From assembly GCF_016918035.1 (NCBI RefSeq), contig NZ_JAERWK010000010.1, positions 186,001-250,000 of the forward strand: a DNA stretch of 64,000 nt, in the 5' to 3' direction. The notes beneath the pieces were generated by a model. It saw nothing but the letters and a program-made list of their open reading frames with translations, ran no database searches and was not told the origin of the DNA. This DNA comes from Nakamurella leprariae (lineage in GTDB: Bacteria > Actinomycetota > Actinomycetes > Mycobacteriales > Nakamurellaceae). Of the stretch, positions 51,160 to 62,483 are shown one piece after another. Within the stretch, counting starts at the first letter, position 1. The number at the start of each line of letters is the position of its first letter. Position numbers and translations under genes: made by a program.

Positions 51160-51295
51160 AGGGGCGGGGCCCGGCGGCCGGGGGCGCCCCGCGCGGGGGG
51201 GTGGGGGGGGGCGGGGGCGGGGGGGGGCGCCGGGGCGACCCCGCGCCCCCCCCCCGGGGGGGGGGGGGCGGGGGGCGCCCCCCGCCACCCGGGAG
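51160..51295. other. Anomalous homopolymeric G/C block
   Basis: Almost only G and C, with long single-base runs including ten C followed directly by thirteen G (51246-51268) and several runs of five to nine G. It does not resemble coding sequence, a terminator or any repeat family I know. Runs of G like these are typical of failed cycles in two-colour sequencing, so a mis-join or badly resolved gap is likely; real G-quadruplex DNA is the alternative. The change of gene content across it supports the artefact or a breakpoint. Confidence 0.7.
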
Positions 51296-51405: not shown

Positions 51406-51611
51406 AGCGCCGCGGCAACCGCACCGCCGCTACGGCGTAACGCCACCGCAACACCGTCCCGACCAGCGAGAACGAGCCCCGAACGGGGCGTTCCGCCGCT
51501 CGACCTGCTGGTTCCCCGGAGTCCGGTCCCTCAGCCGCGACCGGCAACGGCGTAACTGGATGCTTACCGACCGGACCCGAACCCGTTTCCAAGGGTGGAT
51601 TGGATAGCAGC
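51406..51611 (+). promoter_or_regulatory. Leader of the ABC/monooxygenase island
   Basis: Non-coding stretch before the first ATPase. It holds a hairpin at 51470-51493 (GAACG..CCCC, loop GAAC, GGGGCGTTC) and two copies of ACGGCGTAAC at 51432-51441 and 51547-51556, 115 bp apart, which could be operator half-sites. The AT content rises toward TAACTGGATGCTTACC near 51554, a likely promoter area, but I cannot fix -35 and -10. No S-box or other known riboswitch core is present. Confidence 0.4.
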
Positions 51612-52496
51612 ATGGAAGCAACGCTGACCCGATCGGCCGCCGACCTCGACCTCGACCCGGCGGCCCAGAACGCCGTCGTGACCGTCCGCGACCTGCGGGT
51701 CAAGGCGGCCAACAGTCGTGGCACCAACGAGCTGCTGCACGGCGTGTCCGTGGCCGTGGCTCCCGGCACCATGCACGGCCTGGTCGGTGAGACCGGCTCC
51801 GGCAAGTCGATCACCGCGGCCGCGATCATGGGCCTGCTGCCCAAGGGGGTGACCGTCACCTCCGGCTCGATCAAGCTGGGCGACCGGGAACTGGTCGGTC
51901 TGGGCCACAACGAACTGCACGAACTGCGCGGGCCGGCCTTCGGCATGATCTTCCAGAACCCGCGCACGGCTCTGCATCCCATGTACTCGGTGGGCAAGCA
52001 GATGGGCCGGGTGCTGGCCGAGCACATGGAGCTGGGCCGCAAGGAGCGCACCGAGCGGGTGCTGCACTACCTGCGGCTGGTCGGCATCCCGGACGCCACC
52101 CGCATCGCCCACGCCTTCCCGCACGAGCTGTCCGGCGGTCTGGCCCAGCGCGTGGTCATCGCCACCTCGCTGCTGTGCGACCCCACCTTCCTGATCGCCG
52201 ACGAACCGACCACCGGCCTGGACGCCACCGTGCAGCGGCAGATCCTGGAGCTGCTGGCCCGGCTGCAGGAGGACCTCAAGCTCTCGGTCCTGATGATCAC
52301 GCACGACCTGTCGATCGTGGCGCAGTACTGCGCGACGGTCAGTGTGATGTACCAGGGCAACGTCGTCGAGGACGGCACGGTCCGCCAGGTGCTGCGCAGC
52401 CCGTCGGCGCCGTACTCCCGCAACCTGCTCAAGGCGTCCCGGCTGGAGTTCGTCACCCAGCGCGAGCGCTCCGGCCTGACGGCGATGTCGGCATGA
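51612..52496 (+). CDS. Oligopeptide-type ABC transporter ATP-binding protein (DppD-like)
   Basis: First ATPase of a peptide/nickel-class importer; 294 residues. Walker A GETGSGKS, Q-loop FQNPRTALHPMYSVGKQ, signature LSGGLAQR and Walker B LLIADEP-like FLIADEPTTGLDATVQRQI are intact, with the switch His in MITHDLSIVAQYC. The C-terminus lacks the full Cys-rich oligopeptide cap that the partner ATPase has. The ATG at 51612 is chosen; a TTG at 51600 would add four residues. It overlaps the second ATPase as ATGA. It works with the fused permease and the two lipoprotein binding proteins of the island. Confidence 0.93.
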   Translation: MEATLTRSAADLDLDPAAQNAVVTVRDLRVKAANSRGTNELLHGVSVAVAPGTMHGLVGETGSGKSITAAAIMGLLPKGVTVTSGSIKLGDRELVGLGHNELHELRGPAFGMIFQNPRTALHPMYSVGKQMGRVLAEHMELGRKERTERVLHYLRLVGIPDATRIAHAFPHELSGGLAQRVVIATSLLCDPTFLIADEPTTGLDATVQRQILELLARLQEDLKLSVLMITHDLSIVAQYCATVSVMYQGNVVEDGTVRQVLRSPSAPYSRNLLKASRLEFVTQRERSGLTAMSA

Positions 52497-53488
52497 CGCT
52501 CATCGACCAGCGGGGTCCGGCGACACCGGAGTCCCGCGACGTGGTGGTGCTGCGCAACCTGCGCAAGACCTTCCGCGGCCGGGGTGGGTCCGCCGACGTG
52601 GTGGCCATCGACAACACCTCGATGCGGATCGAGCGCGGCTCGACCCTGGGCATCGTGGGGGAGTCGGGCTCGGGCAAGTCGACGCTGGCCCGCACCCTGC
52701 TCGGGCTGATCGCCGCCGATTCGGGCGAGGCCAACGTGCTGGGCGTCAACACCGTCGGCGCGACCGAGCGCAGCCTGCGACCACTGCGGCGCAGGGCCGG
52801 CATCGTCTTCCAGGAGCCCTACGAGGCGCTCGACCCGCGGATGAAGGTCGGCGACCTCATCGGCGAGCCGCTCAAGCTGCACCGCGGTCTGCGCGGGACG
52901 GCGCTGCGGGAGCGGGTGACGGAGCTGATGCAGCTGGTCGTCCTGGACCCGGCCCTGGCCGAGCGGTATCCGCACCAGATGTCCGGCGGTCAGCAGCAGC
53001 GCACCAACATCGCCCGGGCGCTGGCCACCGAGCCGGAGCTGCTGGTGCTGGACGAACCGACCTCGGCACTGGACGTCTCGGTCCGCTCCGAGATCCTGAG
53101 TCTGCTGGTGTCGCTGCAGAACCGGCTCGACATGACCTACGTCCTGGTCTCCCACGACCTGCCGACCATCCGCGCCGTGTGCTCGCACCTGGCCGTGATG
53201 TACCTCGGCCGGGTCGTCGAGCAGGGCACCGTCGAGCAGGTGCTGGGCTCGCCGTCCCACCCGTACACCCGCTTCCTGCTCGGATCGGCGCTCTCGCTCG
53301 ATCCGGACGAGAAGACCGCCCCGCCCGCGGTGAACTCCGTCGGCCTCGACGGCAAGGTCGACCGGCGGGGGTGCTGCTTCGCCCCGCGCTGCGTGTACCG
53401 CGTCGACGAGTGCACGACCAGCATCCCGAAGCTGATGCACCGGAACACTCCGTCCGAGGCCGCCTGTCACCGCGCCGGCACCGTCTGA
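52493..53488 (+). CDS. Oligopeptide-type ABC transporter ATP-binding protein (DppF-like)
   Basis: Second ATPase, 331 residues. Walker A GESGSGKST, Q-loop FQEPYEALDPRMKVGDLI, signature MSGGQQQR and Walker B LLVLDEPTSALDVSVRSEIL are intact; the switch His lies in LVSHDLPTIRAVC. The C-terminal oligo_HPY-type cap has HPYTRFLLGSA and a Cys-containing GCCFAPRCVYRVDEC, a pattern that binds an Fe-S cluster in some DppD/DppF proteins. It is coupled by ATGA to the first ATPase. A 158-bp gap with a hairpin separates it from the permease gene. Confidence 0.93.
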   Translation: MTLIDQRGPATPESRDVVVLRNLRKTFRGRGGSADVVAIDNTSMRIERGSTLGIVGESGSGKSTLARTLLGLIAADSGEANVLGVNTVGATERSLRPLRRRAGIVFQEPYEALDPRMKVGDLIGEPLKLHRGLRGTALRERVTELMQLVVLDPALAERYPHQMSGGQQQRTNIARALATEPELLVLDEPTSALDVSVRSEILSLLVSLQNRLDMTYVLVSHDLPTIRAVCSHLAVMYLGRVVEQGTVEQVLGSPSHPYTRFLLGSALSLDPDEKTAPPAVNSVGLDGKVDRRGCCFAPRCVYRVDECTTSIPKLMHRNTPSEAACHRAGTV

Positions 53489-53646: not shown

Positions 53647-55854
53647 ATGGTCACCACACTGCCCGAGCAGGCGCCCCCACCCAGCGGACCGACGCCGCCC
53701 GGATCGACGACCGTCGTCCCCGACGGCAAGCCGGCCAAGCAGTCCGTCATCCTGCCGATGATTCTGCGGCGGCTGCTGGTGATGATCCCCACCCTGCTCG
53801 GCGTCGTGACCATCACCTTCATCCTGACCCGGGCGCTGGGCGGCAACCCGGCCAAGCAGATCGCCGGCCAGGCCGCCGACCCGGCCACCATCGCCGCCAT
53901 CGAGGCCGAGTACGGCTTCGACAAGCCGTTGATCGTGCAGTACTGGAACTACATCACCGGCCTGTTCCGCGGTGACCTCGGCACCTCGACGGTGACCAAC
54001 GAGCCGGTGCTCGACGATCTGGTCGCCCGGTTCCCCGCCACCCTCGAGATGATCATCCTGGCCATCGCGGTCGCGCTGGTCATCGGCATCCCGCTGGGTG
54101 CCTGGGCGGCCCGGACCAAGCGCAAGGCCATCGGCGGCGCGATCAGCGCGGTCACCTTCTTCACCCTGGCGGTGCCGGACTTCTGGCTCGCCCTCATGGC
54201 CATCTATGTGTTCTTCTTCGTGCTCGGCTGGCTGCCCGCACCCACCGGCCAGGTGAGCCTGAGTGCGACCGGACCGGAGAACATCACCGGTGCCGCGCTG
54301 GTCGACTCGGTCATCACCGGTGACTGGGTCGCCTTCAGCGACGCGTTCCTGCACGCCGTGCTGCCCATCGGGGTGCTCGGCATCCTGCTGTCGGCGCCGA
54401 TCGCCCGGCTCATGCGCGGCGCCATGATGGTCGCCCTGGAGTCGGACTTCATCCGGTTCGGCACCTCGATCGGCCTGAGCCGACTGATGCTGTGGCGCTA
54501 CGCGGTCCGCGGGTCCATCCCGACGGTCATCACCTTCACCGGAACGTTGTTCGTGCTGCTCTGCGGCGGCGCGATCCTCATCGAGACCGTGTTCAGCTGG
54601 GGCGGTGTCGGCCAGTACGCGGCCCAGGCCATCCAGCGCAACGACTACGACGCCACCGCCGGCTTCGTGCTGGTCTCCGGGATCATCGCGATGGTCGGCT
54701 TCCTGGTCATCGACCTGATCCAGATGAAGGTCGACCCCCGCATCCGGGTCACCGGGCGCACCCGCCCGCTGCGCACCCTGTTCACCTGGCGCGCCGCCCG
54801 CTCCGAGGCTGAGCTGCCGGTGGCCGTGCCGGTCTCGATCGACCGCCCCGGTGAGCCGATCACTGCGGGTCCGGTCGACGAGGCGGCGCTGGACGAGGAG
54901 GAGCGGGTCGATCCGGAGCCGGTCCGGCCCAAGCGGTCCATGGCCGATCGGTTCGCCCCGGTGACCGAGCTCGGCTCGGTGCTGTGGGAGATCGTCCGGG
55001 ACCTGCGCCCGCAGCGCATCCCCGGCGCCATCTGGCGGACCATCCGCAGTGGCAACGTCCCGCTGCTGGCCGGCGGCGCGATCATCGCGCTGATGGTGCT
55101 GGCCGCCTTCATCGTGCCGACGTTCTGGAAGTTCGACGTGCTGGCGCCGGACGTGCTCAACCCGCTGGCCGAGCCGAGCGCCGAGCATCCGTTCGGCACC
55201 GACAACTCCGGCTTCGACGTCTTCATCCGGGTCATCTACGCGGCGCGCACCGACCTGTGGATCGCCTTCGCCGGCGTGGCCATCTCCGCGGTGCTGGGCA
55301 TCTTCCTCGGCATGCTGGTCGGCTATTCGCGCAAGCGCTGGGTGGACGACGTGGCGATGCGCATCGTCGACATGATCCAGGTCTTCCCGGTCCTCATCGT
55401 GGCCGTGGCCATGGTCGCCTTCTCCGGCAACAGCCTGACCAACGTCATCTGGGCGCTGGTGTTCATCAACGCGCCGATCTTCATGCGGCTGGCCCGCGGT
55501 GAGGTGCTCACCGTCCGTGAGCACCGCTACATCGAGGCCGCCGGGGCGATGGGCAACAGCCGCATCCGCACCCTGGTCAAGCACGTGCTGCCCAACATCA
55601 TGAGCCAGGGCATCGTGCAGATGGGCATCCAGCTCGGCTACGCCATCCTGACCGTCGCCGGCCTGGCCTTCCTGGGCGTCGGCGTGCAGGCACCCACCGC
55701 GGAATGGGGTTCGATGATCCTGTCCGGCAAGGACAACATCGTCACCGGGCAGTGGTGGACCGTCACCTTCCCGGGCCTGGCCATCCTCGTCGCCGTCGCA
55801 GGGTTCAACCTGCTCGCCGACGGTGTGGCCAAGGCCCGCGACATCTACCGCTGA
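53647..55854 (+). CDS. Fused DppB-DppC ABC transporter permease
   Basis: One 735-residue chain holds both permeases that normally form a heterodimer. The N-terminal half (about 35-375) is DppB-like: LRRLLVMIPTLLGVVTITFIL, YGFDKPLIVQYWNYITGLFRGDLGTS and the EAA-type loop LESDFIRFGTSIGLSRLMLWRYAVRGSIPT. A charged linker (about 380-460) with Glu/Asp and Pro follows. The C-terminal half is DppC-like: NPLAEPSAEHPFGTDNSGFDVFIRVIYAARTDLWIAF and EHRYIEAAGAMGNSRIRTLVKHVLPN. Around twelve membrane helices in total. The start ATG has a distant GAAGGG only. Stop loss between two genes is the probable origin, but both halves look intact. Confidence 0.93.
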   Translation: MVTTLPEQAPPPSGPTPPGSTTVVPDGKPAKQSVILPMILRRLLVMIPTLLGVVTITFILTRALGGNPAKQIAGQAADPATIAAIEAEYGFDKPLIVQYWNYITGLFRGDLGTSTVTNEPVLDDLVARFPATLEMIILAIAVALVIGIPLGAWAARTKRKAIGGAISAVTFFTLAVPDFWLALMAIYVFFFVLGWLPAPTGQVSLSATGPENITGAALVDSVITGDWVAFSDAFLHAVLPIGVLGILLSAPIARLMRGAMMVALESDFIRFGTSIGLSRLMLWRYAVRGSIPTVITFTGTLFVLLCGGAILIETVFSWGGVGQYAAQAIQRNDYDATAGFVLVSGIIAMVGFLVIDLIQMKVDPRIRVTGRTRPLRTLFTWRAARSEAELPVAVPVSIDRPGEPITAGPVDEAALDEEERVDPEPVRPKRSMADRFAPVTELGSVLWEIVRDLRPQRIPGAIWRTIRSGNVPLLAGGAIIALMVLAAFIVPTFWKFDVLAPDVLNPLAEPSAEHPFGTDNSGFDVFIRVIYAARTDLWIAFAGVAISAVLGIFLGMLVGYSRKRWVDDVAMRIVDMIQVFPVLIVAVAMVAFSGNSLTNVIWALVFINAPIFMRLARGEVLTVREHRYIEAAGAMGNSRIRTLVKHVLPNIMSQGIVQMGIQLGYAILTVAGLAFLGVGVQAPTAEWGSMILSGKDNIVTGQWWTVTFPGLAILVAVAGFNLLADGVAKARDIYR

Positions 55855-55958: not shown

Positions 55959-57266
55959 ATGAGCGACGCGCGTTTCCATCTGGCCTGGTTCCTCAACTTC
56001 AGTTCCCCGGCCTGGAACGGCACCTTCACCGGTTCGGACGGAGCGACCTGGACCGACGGCCGCGTGCACGTGGAGATGGCGCGCTCGCTGGAGCGGGGCG
56101 GCTTCGACTACCTGATGCTCGAGGACTCCTCGATGGTCTCCGACGGCTACGAGGGAAGTTCCCGGGTCGATCTGAAGTACGGACTGTACGCACCGAAGCA
56201 CGACCCGATGCCGCTGATCCCGCTCATGGCGGACGCGACCCGGCACATCGGCATCGTCGGCACGGCCTCCACCACGTTCTACCCGCCGTACCTGCTGGCC
56301 CGGCGGATGAGCACGCTCGACCACCTCACCGGAGGCCGGGTCGGCTGGAACATCGTCACCTCCAGCGAGGACCGCGCCGCCCAGAACTTCGGGATGGACA
56401 CGCTGTTCGAGCACGACCACCGGTACGACCGGGCGGACGAGTACGTCGACCTGGTCACCCGGCTCTGGGAATCGTGGGAGCCGGACGCGGTGGTCAAGGA
56501 CGCGGCCACCGGCACCTTCGTGGATCACACCAAGGTCCACACGGTGGACTTCGACGGCAAGTTCTTCGCCAGTCGCGGCCCGCTGAACACGATGCCGCCC
56601 ATCCAGGGGCGCCCGGTCATCTGTCAGGCCGGCGGCTCGCCGCGGGGCCGTCAGTTCGCTGCGACGCACGCCGACACGCTGTTGGCCTCCGCGTACGGCG
56701 TGGAGAAGATGAAGGCCTACCGCGATGACATCCGCGCTCGGCGCGCGGACCTCGGTGGCGACCCGGACTCGGTCAAGGTCATGTTCATCGTGTCCCCGGT
56801 GCTGGGCGAGACGATGCAGGAGGCTCAGGAGAAGGCGGATGCGATGGCTGCTGACTCGGCGGACAAGGTCGAGGCGGCGCTGGGGCACCTGTCCGCCCTC
56901 ACCGAGAACGACTTCTCCACGTTCGATCTGGACGCGCCGGTGCCCACGGTGACCACCAACGGGCACCGGTCCACGTTGGCCGACTTCCTCAGCCTGGGGG
57001 AGGGGAACACCCGCACGCTCCGCGAGATCGCCAACGCCTGGACGATCAACTCGCTGCCGCTGGTGGGGACCCCTGATCACGTGGCCGGCCTGATGGGCGA
57101 GGCCATGCAGGAGGTGGGCGGCGACGGCTTCCTGATCACCGGCAAGCCGAACCGGCGCTACATCAGCGAGATCGCCGACGGCCTGTGCCCCGAACTGCGT
57201 CGTCGCGGACTGATCCGCGACGGCTACGAGCACCGCACCTTCCGCGAGAACCTCATGGCCTTCTGA
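55959..57266 (+). CDS. LLM-class flavin-dependent monooxygenase (NtaA/SnaA/DszA family), copy 1
   Basis: A 435-residue TIM-barrel monooxygenase expected to use reduced FMN from a separate reductase. The start is RFHLAWFLNFSSPAWNG; SLERGGFDYLMLEDS, LKYGLYAPKHDPMPLIPLMA, GIVGTASTTFYPPYLLARRMSTLDHLTGGRVGWNIVTSSEDRAAQNFG and GRPVICQAGGSPRGRQFAATHAD are the family blocks. Enzymes of this family cleave C-N or C-S bonds in nitrilotriacetate, EDTA, dibenzothiophene sulfone and pristinamycin precursors. GAGAGG precedes the ATG. The linkage to an oligopeptide-type importer recalls the EDTA-degradation loci of Gram-negative bacteria. No flavin reductase is present in the window. Confidence 0.9.
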   Translation: MSDARFHLAWFLNFSSPAWNGTFTGSDGATWTDGRVHVEMARSLERGGFDYLMLEDSSMVSDGYEGSSRVDLKYGLYAPKHDPMPLIPLMADATRHIGIVGTASTTFYPPYLLARRMSTLDHLTGGRVGWNIVTSSEDRAAQNFGMDTLFEHDHRYDRADEYVDLVTRLWESWEPDAVVKDAATGTFVDHTKVHTVDFDGKFFASRGPLNTMPPIQGRPVICQAGGSPRGRQFAATHADTLLASAYGVEKMKAYRDDIRARRADLGGDPDSVKVMFIVSPVLGETMQEAQEKADAMAADSADKVEAALGHLSALTENDFSTFDLDAPVPTVTTNGHRSTLADFLSLGEGNTRTLREIANAWTINSLPLVGTPDHVAGLMGEAMQEVGGDGFLITGKPNRRYISEIADGLCPELRRRGLIRDGYEHRTFRENLMAF

Positions 57267-57332: not shown

Positions 57333-58613
57333 ATGTTTCACCTGGGTGCCTTCACCTCGTTCAAGCCGGTCAACTGGGCCGGGCCGTGGAGCGGTGATTC
57401 GGCCGACACATGGGCCGACGGGTCGTTCTGGATCGACATGCTGGTCGCCCTGGAGCGGGCCAAGTTCGACTACGTGATGTTCGAGGATTCCTCCATGGTG
57501 TCCGACGCCTACGGCGGCACCATGGAGAACGATCTGAAGTACGCGCTGTACGCGCCGAAGCACGACCCGATGATGCTGATGCCGCTGCTGGCCAAGTACA
57601 CCGACCACATCGGCCTGATCGCCACCGGGTCGACCACGTTGTCGCCGCCCTGGATGCTGGCCCGCACGCTGGTCACCCTGGACCACATCAGCCACGGGCG
57701 CAGTGGATGGAACGTGGTGACCTCCAGCGAGGACCGGGCGGCGCAGAACTACGGACTGCCGACGTTGCCCGAGCACGACGACCGGTACGACCGCGCCGAG
57801 GAATTCGTCGAGCTGGTCACCGCGCTGATGGCGTCGTGGGATCCGGACGCCCTGGTCATGGACCGTGACACCAACACCTACGTGGACGCCGCCAAGGTGC
57901 ACACGATCGATTTCCAGGGCCGCTACCACAGCAGCCGGGGCCCGCTGAACACGCTGGCACCGCCGAACGGCAAGCCGATCTACTGCCAGGCCGGCAGTTC
58001 GCCGCGCGGCCGGGACTTCGCCGCCAAGCACGCCGACACCATCCTGGTGTCCATCCACGGCGTCGAGCAGATGGCCGCCTACCGCGTGGACATGCACCGG
58101 CGGATGGAGGCGATCGGCCGCGACCCGTCGACCTGCAAGCTGCTGTTCGTGGTCATGCCGGTGCTCGGCGACACCGAGCGGGCCGCGACCGCCAAGCGGA
58201 CCCGGTCCACCCGGAACATCGACGCGGCGCTGGGCAGTCTGTCCGCCATCACCGAGATCGATTTCTCCGCCTTCGATCTGGATCAGCCGTTGCCGGCGGT
58301 CACCACCAACGGTCACGCCGGATACCTGGCCGAGTTCGCCCGAGTGGGTGCCGCCCAGTCCACGTTGCGTGAGCTGGTGAACAACTGGTCGATCAGTTGC
58401 CTGGACCTGGTCGGGACGCCGGAGACGGTGGCCGAGCAGATGGCCGAGACGATGGAGATCGTGGGTGGTGACGGATTCCTCATTGCCGGGGTCAGCAGCC
58501 GCCGGTATCTGACCGAGGTGGTCGACGGCCTGGCGCCCGCACTGCAGGCGATCGGCGCCACGCGGTCGGAGTACTCGTCCACCACGCTGCGTGGCAACCT
58601 CATGGAGTTCTGA
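57333..58613 (+). CDS. LLM-class flavin-dependent monooxygenase, copy 2
   Basis: A 426-residue paralogue of the preceding enzyme with the same blocks: ALERAKFDYVMFEDSSMVSDAYGG, LKYALYAPKHDPMMLMPLL, GRSGWNVVTSSEDRAAQNYG and PIYCQAGSSPRGRDFAAKHAD. The N-terminus starts at MFHLGAFTSFKPVNWAGPW, the normal family beginning. Divergence near the substrate mouth (TSFKPVNWAGPW against LNFSSPAWNGTF) suggests a related but different substrate, or a heteromeric enzyme. GGAG lies about 15 bases before the ATG, so translation may be weaker than for copy 1. It is followed by 256 bp of spacer before the binding-protein genes. Confidence 0.9.
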   Translation: MFHLGAFTSFKPVNWAGPWSGDSADTWADGSFWIDMLVALERAKFDYVMFEDSSMVSDAYGGTMENDLKYALYAPKHDPMMLMPLLAKYTDHIGLIATGSTTLSPPWMLARTLVTLDHISHGRSGWNVVTSSEDRAAQNYGLPTLPEHDDRYDRAEEFVELVTALMASWDPDALVMDRDTNTYVDAAKVHTIDFQGRYHSSRGPLNTLAPPNGKPIYCQAGSSPRGRDFAAKHADTILVSIHGVEQMAAYRVDMHRRMEAIGRDPSTCKLLFVVMPVLGDTERAATAKRTRSTRNIDAALGSLSAITEIDFSAFDLDQPLPAVTTNGHAGYLAEFARVGAAQSTLRELVNNWSISCLDLVGTPETVAEQMAETMEIVGGDGFLIAGVSSRRYLTEVVDGLAPALQAIGATRSEYSSTTLRGNLMEF

Positions 58614-58869: not shown

Positions 58870-60588
58870 ATGGCAGAGATGAAGGACGACCTGACGTCGC
58901 TGGCCAACGCGGCGTCGACCGCCCTGACGGTCAAGGCGCTGAACCGGCGCTCGCTGTTCCGCATCGGCGGATCCGCGCTGGCACTCGGTGGTGCCAGCGC
59001 CTTCCTGGCCGCCTGCGGCGGCAATCCTGCCGGCAACCGGGGTGGGACGTCCAGCGGGGGCAGCGCCGCCGCGTCCGGCGGTGCCGCCGGGGGGACCGAC
59101 ACGCTCACCGTCTCCACCTCGCTCGGCGGCACCGTCTTCGACCCCGAGCTCCCGGCCGGCAACTTCCAGTTCCCGATGCTGTACGACTCGCTGTTCGACA
59201 CCGACACCCCGCCGGACTCGGCCGAGGCGCAGGCGTTGCTGGCCGACTTCGAGCCGCAGCCGGCGCTGGCCACGAAGTGGGAGTCGAACGAGGACAACTC
59301 GGTCTGGACGATCACGCTGAACACCGAGGCGACCAGCCCCTACGGCAACAAGCTCACCTCGGCCGACATCCTGTGGACCTTCGAGCGCCACCTGGCCATG
59401 AAGTGGTACGGCGGGATCTTCCTGAACCGGGTCGGTGTCACCGACATCAGCCAGATCGAGGCGCCCACCCCGGACACGTTCGTGATGAACCTGGCCGGCC
59501 CGGTGGGCCGCACCTATTTCCTGCTGGTCATGGGCTGCTTCATCGTCCCGATCTTCGACTCGGTCGAGGGTCAGCAGCACGTCACCGCCGAGGATCCGTG
59601 GGCCTCGGACTGGATCAGCAAGAACGCCTGCGGGTTCGGCCCCTACACGCTCAAGTCGTCGTCCCCGGACGGTGCGCTGAACGTGTTCGAGGCGAACCCG
59701 AACTACTACGGCGAGACGCCGATCCAGACGGTCACCTTCCGTCAGACCACGGAGACCAGCACCCAGCTGCAGCTGCTGCTGCGCGGGGAGGCCCAGCTGA
59801 TCGACTCGCTGTCGCCGATCCAGGTGGCCGAGGTCGAGAACAGCGACTCCGCCAAGATCACCCGGGTAGCCAACACCGGCTACACGTTCATCGGGTTCAA
59901 CAACAGCCAGGACAACTACAAGGAGGTCGCGCTGCATCAGGGCATGGCCTACGCGCTGCCGTTCGGGGACATCGTGGACAGCGTCTACAAGGGCCTGGCC
60001 ACGCCCATGCAGAGCGTGCTGCCCGACTTCTTCCAGGGTGCCACCAACGAGTTCTGGACCTACGAGCAGGATCTCGATCGGGCGCGCGAGCTGCTGGCGC
60101 CGTTCGCCGACGCCGGTCTGGTGCTGCAGTACAAGGCCGGCGACACGGTCATCCAGACCCTGGCCGTGCTCATCCAGAGTTCGCTGCAGGCGGTCGGCCT
60201 GCCGATCGAGCTGAACGCGATGGATCCCGCTTCCTTCCAGCAGCAGCTGACCGGGGCCACGCTGTCGATGTGGATCGACAACCAGTCGACGCCGCTAGTG
60301 CCGGACTCGCTGTACGGCCTGCAGCTGCTGTTCCCCAGCGAGCCGACGCAGGTGCTCATCCACTACTCGAACCCGATCGTGGACGAGGCCGTGGGCGCCC
60401 TGGCCAGCTCGTTCGACCCGCAGGAGCAGGTCGAGCTGATCCGCACCGCTCAGGAGCAGATCATGAAGGACCTGGCTGTGCTGCCGCTGGCCCAGACCGG
60501 TGGGCTGGTGCCGACCGCGAACAACGTCACCAACATCAAGGGCCACGGCGCCAACCTGGCCTGGGCCAAGGGTCTGCAGTACAGCTGA
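58870..60588 (+). CDS. Tat-type lipoprotein solute-binding protein (SBP family 5), copy 1
   Basis: Extracytoplasmic receptor of the island importer; 572 residues. The signal has a long n-region, the twin-arginine motif NRRSLFRIGG (Arg26-Arg27) and the lipobox FLAAC (Cys49), so it is exported folded and lipidated. A Gly/Ser/Ala linker precedes the family-5 fold: FPMLYDSLFD, ALATKWESNEDNSVWTITLN, SADILWTFERHLAMKW, CGFGPYTLKS and IGFNNSQDNYKEVALHQGMAYALP. Folded export suggests a bound cofactor or metal chelate. The ATG at 58870 is chosen; a second in-frame ATG lies nine bases on. A near-copy follows. Confidence 0.93.
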   Translation: MAEMKDDLTSLANAASTALTVKALNRRSLFRIGGSALALGGASAFLAACGGNPAGNRGGTSSGGSAAASGGAAGGTDTLTVSTSLGGTVFDPELPAGNFQFPMLYDSLFDTDTPPDSAEAQALLADFEPQPALATKWESNEDNSVWTITLNTEATSPYGNKLTSADILWTFERHLAMKWYGGIFLNRVGVTDISQIEAPTPDTFVMNLAGPVGRTYFLLVMGCFIVPIFDSVEGQQHVTAEDPWASDWISKNACGFGPYTLKSSSPDGALNVFEANPNYYGETPIQTVTFRQTTETSTQLQLLLRGEAQLIDSLSPIQVAEVENSDSAKITRVANTGYTFIGFNNSQDNYKEVALHQGMAYALPFGDIVDSVYKGLATPMQSVLPDFFQGATNEFWTYEQDLDRARELLAPFADAGLVLQYKAGDTVIQTLAVLIQSSLQAVGLPIELNAMDPASFQQQLTGATLSMWIDNQSTPLVPDSLYGLQLLFPSEPTQVLIHYSNPIVDEAVGALASSFDPQEQVELIRTAQEQIMKDLAVLPLAQTGGLVPTANNVTNIKGHGANLAWAKGLQYS

Positions 60589-60758: not shown

Positions 60759-62483
60759 ATGGCCGAGATCCGTCCCGACCTGGCGCTGTTGGCCTCGCTG
60801 AACGCTCAGGCGTCCACGGAGTCCAATCTGCGGGCCCTGACCCGGCGTTCCGTGCTGCGCGGGGCGGGTGCCCTGCTCGCGGCGGGCGGCGCGAGCGCCT
60901 TCCTGGCCGCCTGTGGCGGCGGCAATCCCGCCGGCAACGTCGGCGGCACCTCGGGTGCCGCGGCGACCGCGGGCGGGGCTGCTGCCGTCTCCGACACCCT
61001 GACCGTCGCCGCCGCCTCCAGCGGCACCATCTTCGACCCGGACGTGCGGGGCAACACCTCGCAGTACCAGATGCTGTACGACACCCTGTTCGACACCTCG
61101 ACCCCGCCGGACGCCACCGAGGCGCAGCAGTACCTGGCCGATTTCGAGCCGATGCCGTCGCTGGCCACCAAGTGGGAGTCCAACGATGACAACTCGGTGT
61201 GGACGATCACGCTGAACACCGAGGCGACCAGCCCGTTCGGCAACAAGCTGACCTCGGCCGATGTGCTGTGGTCCTTCGAGCGGCACCTGGCGCTCAAGTG
61301 GTACGCCGGGATCTTCCTGAACCGGGTCGGGGTCACCGACATCAGCCAGATCGAGGCGCCCAGCGACGACACCGTCGTGATGAACCTGGCCGGCCCGGTC
61401 GGCCGCAGCTACTTCCTGTTGCTGATGGGCTGCTACATCGTGCCCATCCTGGACTCGGTCGAGGGCAAGAAGCACGTGACCGGCGACGACCCCTGGGGGT
61501 CGGAGTTCATCAAGACCAACGCGTGCGGGTTCGGCCCGTACACGCTGGCCAGCTCGGCCCCGGACGGTTCGATGAACGTCTTCGAGGCCAACCCGAACTA
61601 CTACGCCGAGGTGCCGATCAAGACGATCACCTGGCGTCAGACCACGGAGACCAGCACCCAGCTGCAGCTGCTGCTGCGCGGCGAGGTCCAGCTGATCGAC
61701 GGGCTGTCCCCGATCCAGGTCGACCAGGTGGATGCCAGCGACATGGCCAAGGTGACCCGGGTGGCCACCACCGGCAACGTCATCCTGGGCTTCAACCACG
61801 ATCAGGAGCACTACGGGGACGTCGAGCTGCACCAGGGCATCGCCTACGCGTTGCCGTTCGACGACATCATCAACAGCGTCTACCGCGGTCAGGCCACGCA
61901 GATGAAGAGCGTGCTGGTCGACTTCCTGCTCGGCGCCACCGACGAGTACTGGGTCTACGAGCGGGATCTGGACAAGGCGCGGACGCTGCTGGCGCCGTAC
62001 GCGGACGCCGGCCTGGTGCTGCAGTACCAGGGTGGTGACACGCTGGTGCAGACCCTCGCCGTGCTCATGCAGAGCTCGCTGGCCGAGGCCGGTCTGAACA
62101 TCCAGCTCGAGGCGTTGGACCCCAGCACCTATCAGACCAAGATCACCGAGGCGACCATGTCGATGTGGATCGACTCCAAGACCGCGCCGCTGGTGCCGGC
62201 CTCGCTGTACGCGCTGCAGCTGCTGTACCCGACCGCGCCCACCCAGGTGCTGCTGCACTACTCGAATTCGGTGGTGGACGAGGCCGTGGGTGCGCTGGCC
62301 AGCGCGTCCGACCAGGACGAGCAGATCGAGCTGATCCGCACTGCGCAGGAGCAGCTCATGAAGGATCTGCCGATCGTGCCGATCGCGCAGACCGGCCAGC
62401 TGGTCCCGACCGCGATCAACATCGAGAACGTCCGAGGGCACGGTGCCAACGCCGTGTGGCCCAAGGGGCTCGAGTACAGCTGA
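60759..62483 (+). CDS. Tat-type lipoprotein solute-binding protein (SBP family 5), copy 2
   Basis: A 574-residue paralogue of the preceding receptor. Twin arginine TRRSVLRGAG (Arg29-Arg30) and lipobox FLAAC (Cys52) are conserved. Most of the fold matches closely, with shared TTETSTQLQLLLRGE, FEANPNYY and ALHQG-type blocks, while the linker and several loops differ. The ATG at 60759 has GGAAGG eight bases upstream; the GTG nine bases before it is in frame but poorly placed. Two receptors sharing one permease parallel the two monooxygenases, which suggests two related substrates. A hairpin ends the cluster before convergent leuA. Confidence 0.93.
   Translation: MAEIRPDLALLASLNAQASTESNLRALTRRSVLRGAGALLAAGGASAFLAACGGGNPAGNVGGTSGAAATAGGAAAVSDTLTVAAASSGTIFDPDVRGNTSQYQMLYDTLFDTSTPPDATEAQQYLADFEPMPSLATKWESNDDNSVWTITLNTEATSPFGNKLTSADVLWSFERHLALKWYAGIFLNRVGVTDISQIEAPSDDTVVMNLAGPVGRSYFLLLMGCYIVPILDSVEGKKHVTGDDPWGSEFIKTNACGFGPYTLASSAPDGSMNVFEANPNYYAEVPIKTITWRQTTETSTQLQLLLRGEVQLIDGLSPIQVDQVDASDMAKVTRVATTGNVILGFNHDQEHYGDVELHQGIAYALPFDDIINSVYRGQATQMKSVLVDFLLGATDEYWVYERDLDKARTLLAPYADAGLVLQYQGGDTLVQTLAVLMQSSLAEAGLNIQLEALDPSTYQTKITEATMSMWIDSKTAPLVPASLYALQLLYPTAPTQVLLHYSNSVVDEAVGALASASDQDEQIELIRTAQEQLMKDLPIVPIAQTGQLVPTAINIENVRGHGANAVWPKGLEYS

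Follow-up and report, generated by a model that had tools for sequence, protein, structure and literature searches.

The App, Dpp and Opp systems of B. subtilis each possess two separate membrane subunits, as described in the available part of a survey of the ABC transporters of this bacterium (PMC11466899). In the window, i.e., the whole stretch of 64,000 nucleotides of Nakamurella leprariae DNA that was analysed here, a first-pass annotation noticed a single open reading frame in which a DppB-like and a DppC-like permease seem to be joined. This raises the question of whether the two subunits are really encoded as one chain and, if so, what kind of importer this chain would belong to. We consider it likely that the explanation developed below holds as a whole: a lineage-specific fusion would yield a single-chain BC permease, which works together with two ATPases and a binding protein and whose substrate is oxidised by monooxygenases.

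Domain architecture of the fused permease

The fused permease of 735 amino acids is encoded at positions 53647-55854 of the forward strand and was delimited by its open frame, domain matches, coding statistics and predicted fold. The frame runs over 735 codons without a stop, from the ATG at 53647 to the TGA at 55854. The DppB/OppB-class half comprises approximately residues 35-372 (53749-54762, + strand) and the DppC/OppC-class half approximately residues 455-735 (55009-55851, + strand); both were assigned using Pfam, NCBIfam, hydropathy and the model, and each contains six hydrophobic peaks. Pfam detects BPD_transp_1_N once and BPD_transp_1 in two stretches, one per half, and the NCBIfam profiles Opp2B and Opp2C match residues 42-367 and 501-729, respectively. 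A sequence search of solved structures returned nine sequences up to an E-value of 0.001, all of which are Dpp/Opp-class permeases; the B half matched E. coli DppB with 1.3e-52 and the C half matched DppC with 2.6e-43. Since both halves are homologous to DppB and DppC over almost their full length, chance resemblance is of no concern. With the open frame of 735 codons and both domains found, the initial description of DppB/DppC-class permeases in one frame is borne out.

The naming as a dipeptide permease did not hold. All 25 listed NCBIfam matches of the fused permease (27 in total) fell short of their curated cut-offs; the scores for DppB and DppC were 203.6 of 590 bits and 170.2 of 483 bits, respectively. 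As the Dpp cut-offs are far from being reached, the label "dipeptide" is unsupported; moreover, two NtaA/DmoA-family monooxygenases are encoded next to the permease. Several features of a PepT-class importer are present: the B part contains BPD_transp_1_N and BPD_transp_1 and the C part BPD_transp_1 (Pfam), genes for a family-5 binding protein and for two ATPases of the OppD/OppF type are located close by, and B and C fold like the DppB and DppC subunits in the predicted model.

Predicted structure, topology and coupling loops

The structure of the fused chain was predicted with AlphaFold2 from an alignment of 28 rows, namely the query, five other sequences spanning both genes, in which the stop was read as Trp, and 22 B-only sequences; the C half of the alignment rested on six rows. 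Alignments mixing B and C rows were dropped, because B rows landed on the C half, and 61 of 127 rows were still misplaced when rows spanning both genes were added to the mixed alignment. The model has a mean pLDDT of 80.2 and a pTM of 0.79 and shows both permeases as ordered folds connected by a disordered linker: pLDDT values are below 50 for residues 1-32, 368-442 and 453-457 and above 80 for most of both permease halves. In superpositions with VIA-align 2, residues 40-367 of the model match E. coli DppB (8z1y_A; Z 27.1, 2.2 Å over 326 residues), and residues 456-735 match DppC (8z1w_B; Z 29.0, 2.1 Å over 276 residues).

A hydropathy scan revealed twelve peaks, with six on either side of the linker. 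The membrane orientation of DppB and DppC is established, with B ending and C starting on the cytoplasmic side. From the peak count and the DppB/DppC folds, the linker is predicted to be cytoplasmic. The first-pass annotation had placed it there as well, which agrees with the six hydrophobic peaks per half, the disordered loop of the model and the superposition of the halves on DppB and DppC.

Both coupling (EAA) loops had been described as preserved, which is correct for the C half and applies to the B half mainly with regard to one residue. The C-side loop (residues 627-650; 55525-55596, + strand; located using the alignment and the model) contains the canonical motif YIEAAGAMG at residues 628-636. 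The B-side loop, which was located in the same way (residues 267-285; 54445-54501, + strand), is degenerate; of the majority sequence, its stretch DFIRFGTSIGLS (residues 267-278) retains hardly more than the invariant Gly276. Some unfused relatives, for example those at loci L075 and L090, also diverge from the majority EAA sequence in B.

Coding properties of the linker

The two halves are connected by an acidic, proline-rich linker of approximately 77 amino acids (residues 374-450; 54766-54996, + strand), which was defined by its composition, coding statistics and the model. It contains 10 Glu, 5 Asp, 10 Pro, 8 Arg and 1 Lys and has a net charge of -6, in agreement with its earlier characterization as charged and rich in Glu, Asp and Pro. 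The GC content at third codon positions (GC3) is 0.92 in the linker and 0.96 in each permease half. A codon model, for which eight genes of the window other than the permease served as training set, gave the linker a log-odds score of +42.6 in the reading frame, compared with -89.0 and -91.3 in the two alternative forward frames; the reverse frames scored -22.8, +4.9 and -131.5, one of them being slightly positive. The five intergenic stretches beside the gene, which are 156, 104, 66, 256 and 170 bases long, are negative in all six frames.

The same picture emerges at finer resolution. In 18-codon windows over the junction (residues 366 to 458), the score of the reading frame is always at least +3.9; for the 472 forward-strand windows of this length taken from four intergenic stretches, the 95th percentile is 0.1. 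The highest intergenic score is 4.9, and some intergenic windows lie above the weakest one of the junction, with the two ranges just touching. The weakest 18-codon window of the entire reading frame, with a score of -1.8, is located within the B half at residue 193. Residues 374-391 score +8.9 in the reading frame, compared with -29.7 and -24.1 in the two alternative forward frames. Judged from its codons, the linker appears to be translated in frame with the permease, with no frame change and no clear non-coding gap, and these in-frame coding statistics make a missed stop or frameshift unlikely.

Unfused permease pairs and the search for other fusions

A search for the same fusion in related genomes, proposed as a check in the first-pass annotation, yielded no second case in the sets searched. 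All candidates were scored in 16 of the 17 genomes of the genus and 64 of 77 candidates in the remaining one (G016), and no second fusion was found. The same applies to the matches listed for 41 relatives (up to 26 candidates scored per genome), 148 genomes of the class (up to seven each), 200 genomes of the order (five each) and 396 genomes of the phylum (two each). Likewise, no fusion was present among the matches listed for 35 genomes of the family of G838 (up to 31 candidates each) and 349 genomes of the phylum of G434 (up to three each), and no second one in the 11 genomes behind the named loci, for which all candidates were scored. These sets overlap and are not additive, the own genome was counted wherever it belonged, and the listed matches are subject to an E-value limit per search; fusions that are distant in sequence or rank low among the candidates of a genome could be missed. 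A contig scan led to 11 loci, and a frame check over 70 loci flagged the window alone. Among plasmids, 4078 records matched; in 1253 of them, 80% or more of the query was covered at a single place, and six of the 40 matches listed (H5, H6, H21, H25, H33 and H35) aligned unbroken over both halves.

Several apparent fusions were rejected. In the plasmid candidates H5, H21, H25, H33 and H35, B and C are separated by one or two in-frame stops. Apart from the window, the listed genome matches that extend well into both halves come from one genome of the genus (G011), two of the phylum (G047 and G165) and two of the order (G1189 and G1084), and every one of them has a stop inside. A pair in the own genome (C26:90777-92654) seemed to be fused, as its matches were given with a frame of 719 amino acids; its translation revealed a TGA between B and C. 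Literature matches listed for fused oligopeptide-class or other permeases contained no recognisable report of a B-C fusion: in the parts available, the "fused permease" of PMC3608642 and PMC4338557 refers to TRAP transporters, and the accessible portion of PMC10569065 describes no permease fusion.

All 16 other B-C pairs found in the own genome are separate genes. Across 112 loci, 81 neighbouring B/C pairs were identified, two of which represent the window itself; none of the other 79 is fused. Among the 69 unfused pairs in B-C order, 58 are out of frame, nine are in frame and separated by one stop, and two by two stops; eight of the ten pairs in C-B order are out of frame, and the other two are in frame with two stops. 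In-frame pairs are over-represented in these counts, since joined matches were picked deliberately. With mechanically called starts, the genes overlap in 47 of the 69 pairs in B-C order, 34 of them at -4 bases. Some unfused C subunits carry N-terminal tails before the matched core whose upper length estimates are comparable to that of the linker. Among the closest permeases (approximately 38-41% identity for B and 42-45% for C), several are encoded at loci with the order SBP-C-B-ATPase-ATPase.

Gene neighbourhood and putative substrate

The fused permease is the third of seven genes on the + strand, which are arranged in the order ATPase-ATPase-permease-monooxygenase-monooxygenase-SBP-SBP and, judging from this order and the common strand, would form one operon. 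The first gene (51600-52496, + strand; Pfam, NCBIfam) encodes an OppD/DppD-like ABC ATPase of 298 amino acids when read from a TTG start, with the ATG at 51612 as a possible alternative; no oligo_HPY domain was found in it using Pfam. Its signature reads LSGGL, not LSGGQ, and Walker A and B seem intact by eye. The overlapping second gene (52478-53488, + strand) encodes an OppF/DppF-like ATPase of 336 amino acids with a C-terminal oligo_HPY domain. The C-terminal end of this protein (53369-53485) is cysteine-rich (GCCFAPRC...C...C), a stretch which we take to resemble the iron-sulphur motif of Opp/Dpp ATPases. A very G/C-rich, imperfect inverted repeat is located upstream of the gene cluster at 51221-51290.

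Downstream of the permease, two NtaA/DmoA-family FMN-dependent monooxygenases are encoded at 55959-57266 (435 amino acids, + strand; Pfam, NCBIfam) and 57333-58613 (426 amino acids, + strand), followed by two family-5 solute-binding proteins at 58870-60588 (572 amino acids, + strand; Pfam, NCBIfam) and 60759-62483 (574 amino acids, + strand). The two monooxygenases are 56% and the two binding proteins 68% identical to each other, which suggests tandem duplication. At the start of both binding proteins, a twin-arginine stretch precedes a lipobox-like LAAC (58870-59022 and 60759-60920), and their N-termini presumably resemble those of Tat-exported lipoproteins. The monooxygenases score 425.9 and 388.0 bits, respectively, against TIGR03860 (NCBIfam cut-off 279.7). 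DszA (5tlc) is the best solved relative of both, and for monooxygenase 1, dimethyl-sulfide monooxygenase and YtnJ are almost level with it. Among the seven genes, no flavin reductase was found using Pfam. The presence of two adjacent NtaA/DmoA monooxygenases indicates a substrate other than a dipeptide, which is probably a small organic molecule destined for oxidative cleavage.

Many relatives of the NtaA/DmoA family are found in the own genome (e.g., on contigs C13, C25 and C32). With five of 82 candidates scored, four copies are 56-62% identical to monooxygenase 1, one of them being monooxygenase 2, and there are numerous weaker DNA matches to the monooxygenase 1 gene. At another locus of this genome (L024, on C26), a monooxygenase of this class, which is 33% identical, directly precedes a separate B-C pair.

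Proposed explanation and alternatives

There is, in our view, a high probability that the B-C fusion is real, and it is apparently lineage-specific. Two adjacent permease genes of a PepT-class, type I ABC importer would have merged into one frame; a small mutation at a junction with a short B-C overlap would be the simplest route, and the linker may mostly correspond to the former N-terminal tail of the C subunit. The product would be a chain of 12 helices whose two halves pack into an intramolecular DppB:DppC pseudo-heterodimer; the linker would form a flexible and most likely passive strap in the cytoplasm. The two separate ATPases may dock onto the two coupling loops of the chain, the substrate would be delivered by one of the two binding proteins, and, inside the cell, the two flavin monooxygenases would oxidise it. 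Production of one intact chain, its topology and its assembly with the ATPases are presumed from the sequence and the model.

The frame could also be the result of a sequencing or assembly error, in which case B and C would be separate and one wrong base would have removed a stop or a frame change. A single event would be enough, as 11 codons between residues 367 and 431 are one substitution away from a stop; the brief overlaps common among unfused pairs mean that a small indel could fuse them, and the sets searched contain no second genome with the fusion. However, codon usage favours the reading frame before, across and after the junction, so that neither a frame switch nor a clear non-coding gap is visible, and the source genome is 99.01% complete in 39 contigs; we regard an error as quite improbable. 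Marginally less improbable is internal initiation within the linker, by which the C half would also or mainly be made as a separate protein. In-frame start codons are present where a C subunit could start (ATG at 54940, GTG at 54820 or 54826), and the sequences at these three starts match AGGAGG at four of six positions, as opposed to three of six at the annotated start. This comparison, however, is non-discriminating here, and the codon signal upstream of these starts (+8.9 for residues 374-391) is as positive as that after them, as if translation came from the start of B.

If the fused gene is translated as a whole, the chain could still be cut in the linker to give ordinary separate subunits. 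Such a cut would be compatible with the length, acidity, high proline content and predicted disorder of the linker; we know of no precedent, however, for linker cleavage in oligopeptide-class permeases, and this fate appears very improbable, more so than the alternatives above. A role for the tie itself is somewhat easier to imagine, albeit still unlikely: it might insulate the system by fixing a 1:1 pairing of B and C and blocking mixing with paralogues, of which there are at least 16 other pairs, and the strap may touch the ATPases and tune the cycle. The preferred reading remains a real fusion, most likely with a passive strap.

Comparison with known systems

The closest structural reference is the E. 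coli dipeptide importer (DppBCDF and DppABCDF, PDB 8z1v-8z1z), whose DppB and DppC are matched by the two halves in sequence and predicted fold; the permease gene is likewise accompanied by genes for two separate ATPases and for family-5 binding proteins. In contrast to E. coli, where DppB and DppC are separate chains, the N. leprariae permease is a single chain with a linker of approximately 77 amino acids.

A similar set of genes, in the order ATPase-ATPase-B-C-SBP-monooxygenase-monooxygenase, occurs at loci L088, L089 and L090, which belong to three genomes from another family of the class. These loci share the kinds of genes with the N. leprariae cluster, and ATPases, permeases and the monooxygenase pair follow a common order. 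However, their B and C are separate, the only binding-protein match precedes the monooxygenases, and the permeases are 29-39% identical; the identity between their B parts and the B half is only about 29-30%, so that orthology is not clear. A combination of uptake and oxidation is also found in Chelativorans sp. BNC1, where, according to the part of the source that was available, the genes for ABC-dependent EDTA uptake and the FMNH2-dependent EDTA monooxygenase are located in one operon (PMC7312458). Monooxygenase 1, in contrast, matches the EDTA monooxygenase (5dqp) with 4.3e-39 and DszA (5tlc) with 1.2e-75. The match of binding protein 1 to 6wm6, which we take to be EppA, is just 4.7e-06.

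A single-chain permease is represented by chain A of 9j4r, presumably FbpB, the two-permease chain of the Thermus thermophilus ferric importer FbpBC. It aligns to both permease halves of the model (residues 52-731; Z 21.5, 4.2 Å over 436 residues with VIA-align 2), but shares 13% identity and belongs to a different importer family; Foldseek returned it with an E-value of 4.6e-05 and a poor superposition (rmsd 14.7 over 658 columns). Like FbpB, the fused permease contains two BPD permease domains in one chain, as seen with Pfam and in the model, and it would work like an FbpB-type single chain, while membership in the FbpB type is not claimed. FhuB and ThiP are further fused permeases. Membrane domains are also fused in some exporters, according to the available part of the B. 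subtilis survey (PMC11466899), and since one-chain permeases are thus known from other ABC families, the principle is not new. The N. leprariae protein provides a natural single-chain form of a permease pair that is otherwise separate in the matched solved Dpp and Opp structures. In structural or mechanistic work, this protein could be used as a ready-made tool for fixing subunit pairing, and it offers a test of whether fusing the membrane halves alters an importer of the oligopeptide class. Compared with these systems, it is a rare variation on a well-known importer rather than a new machine.
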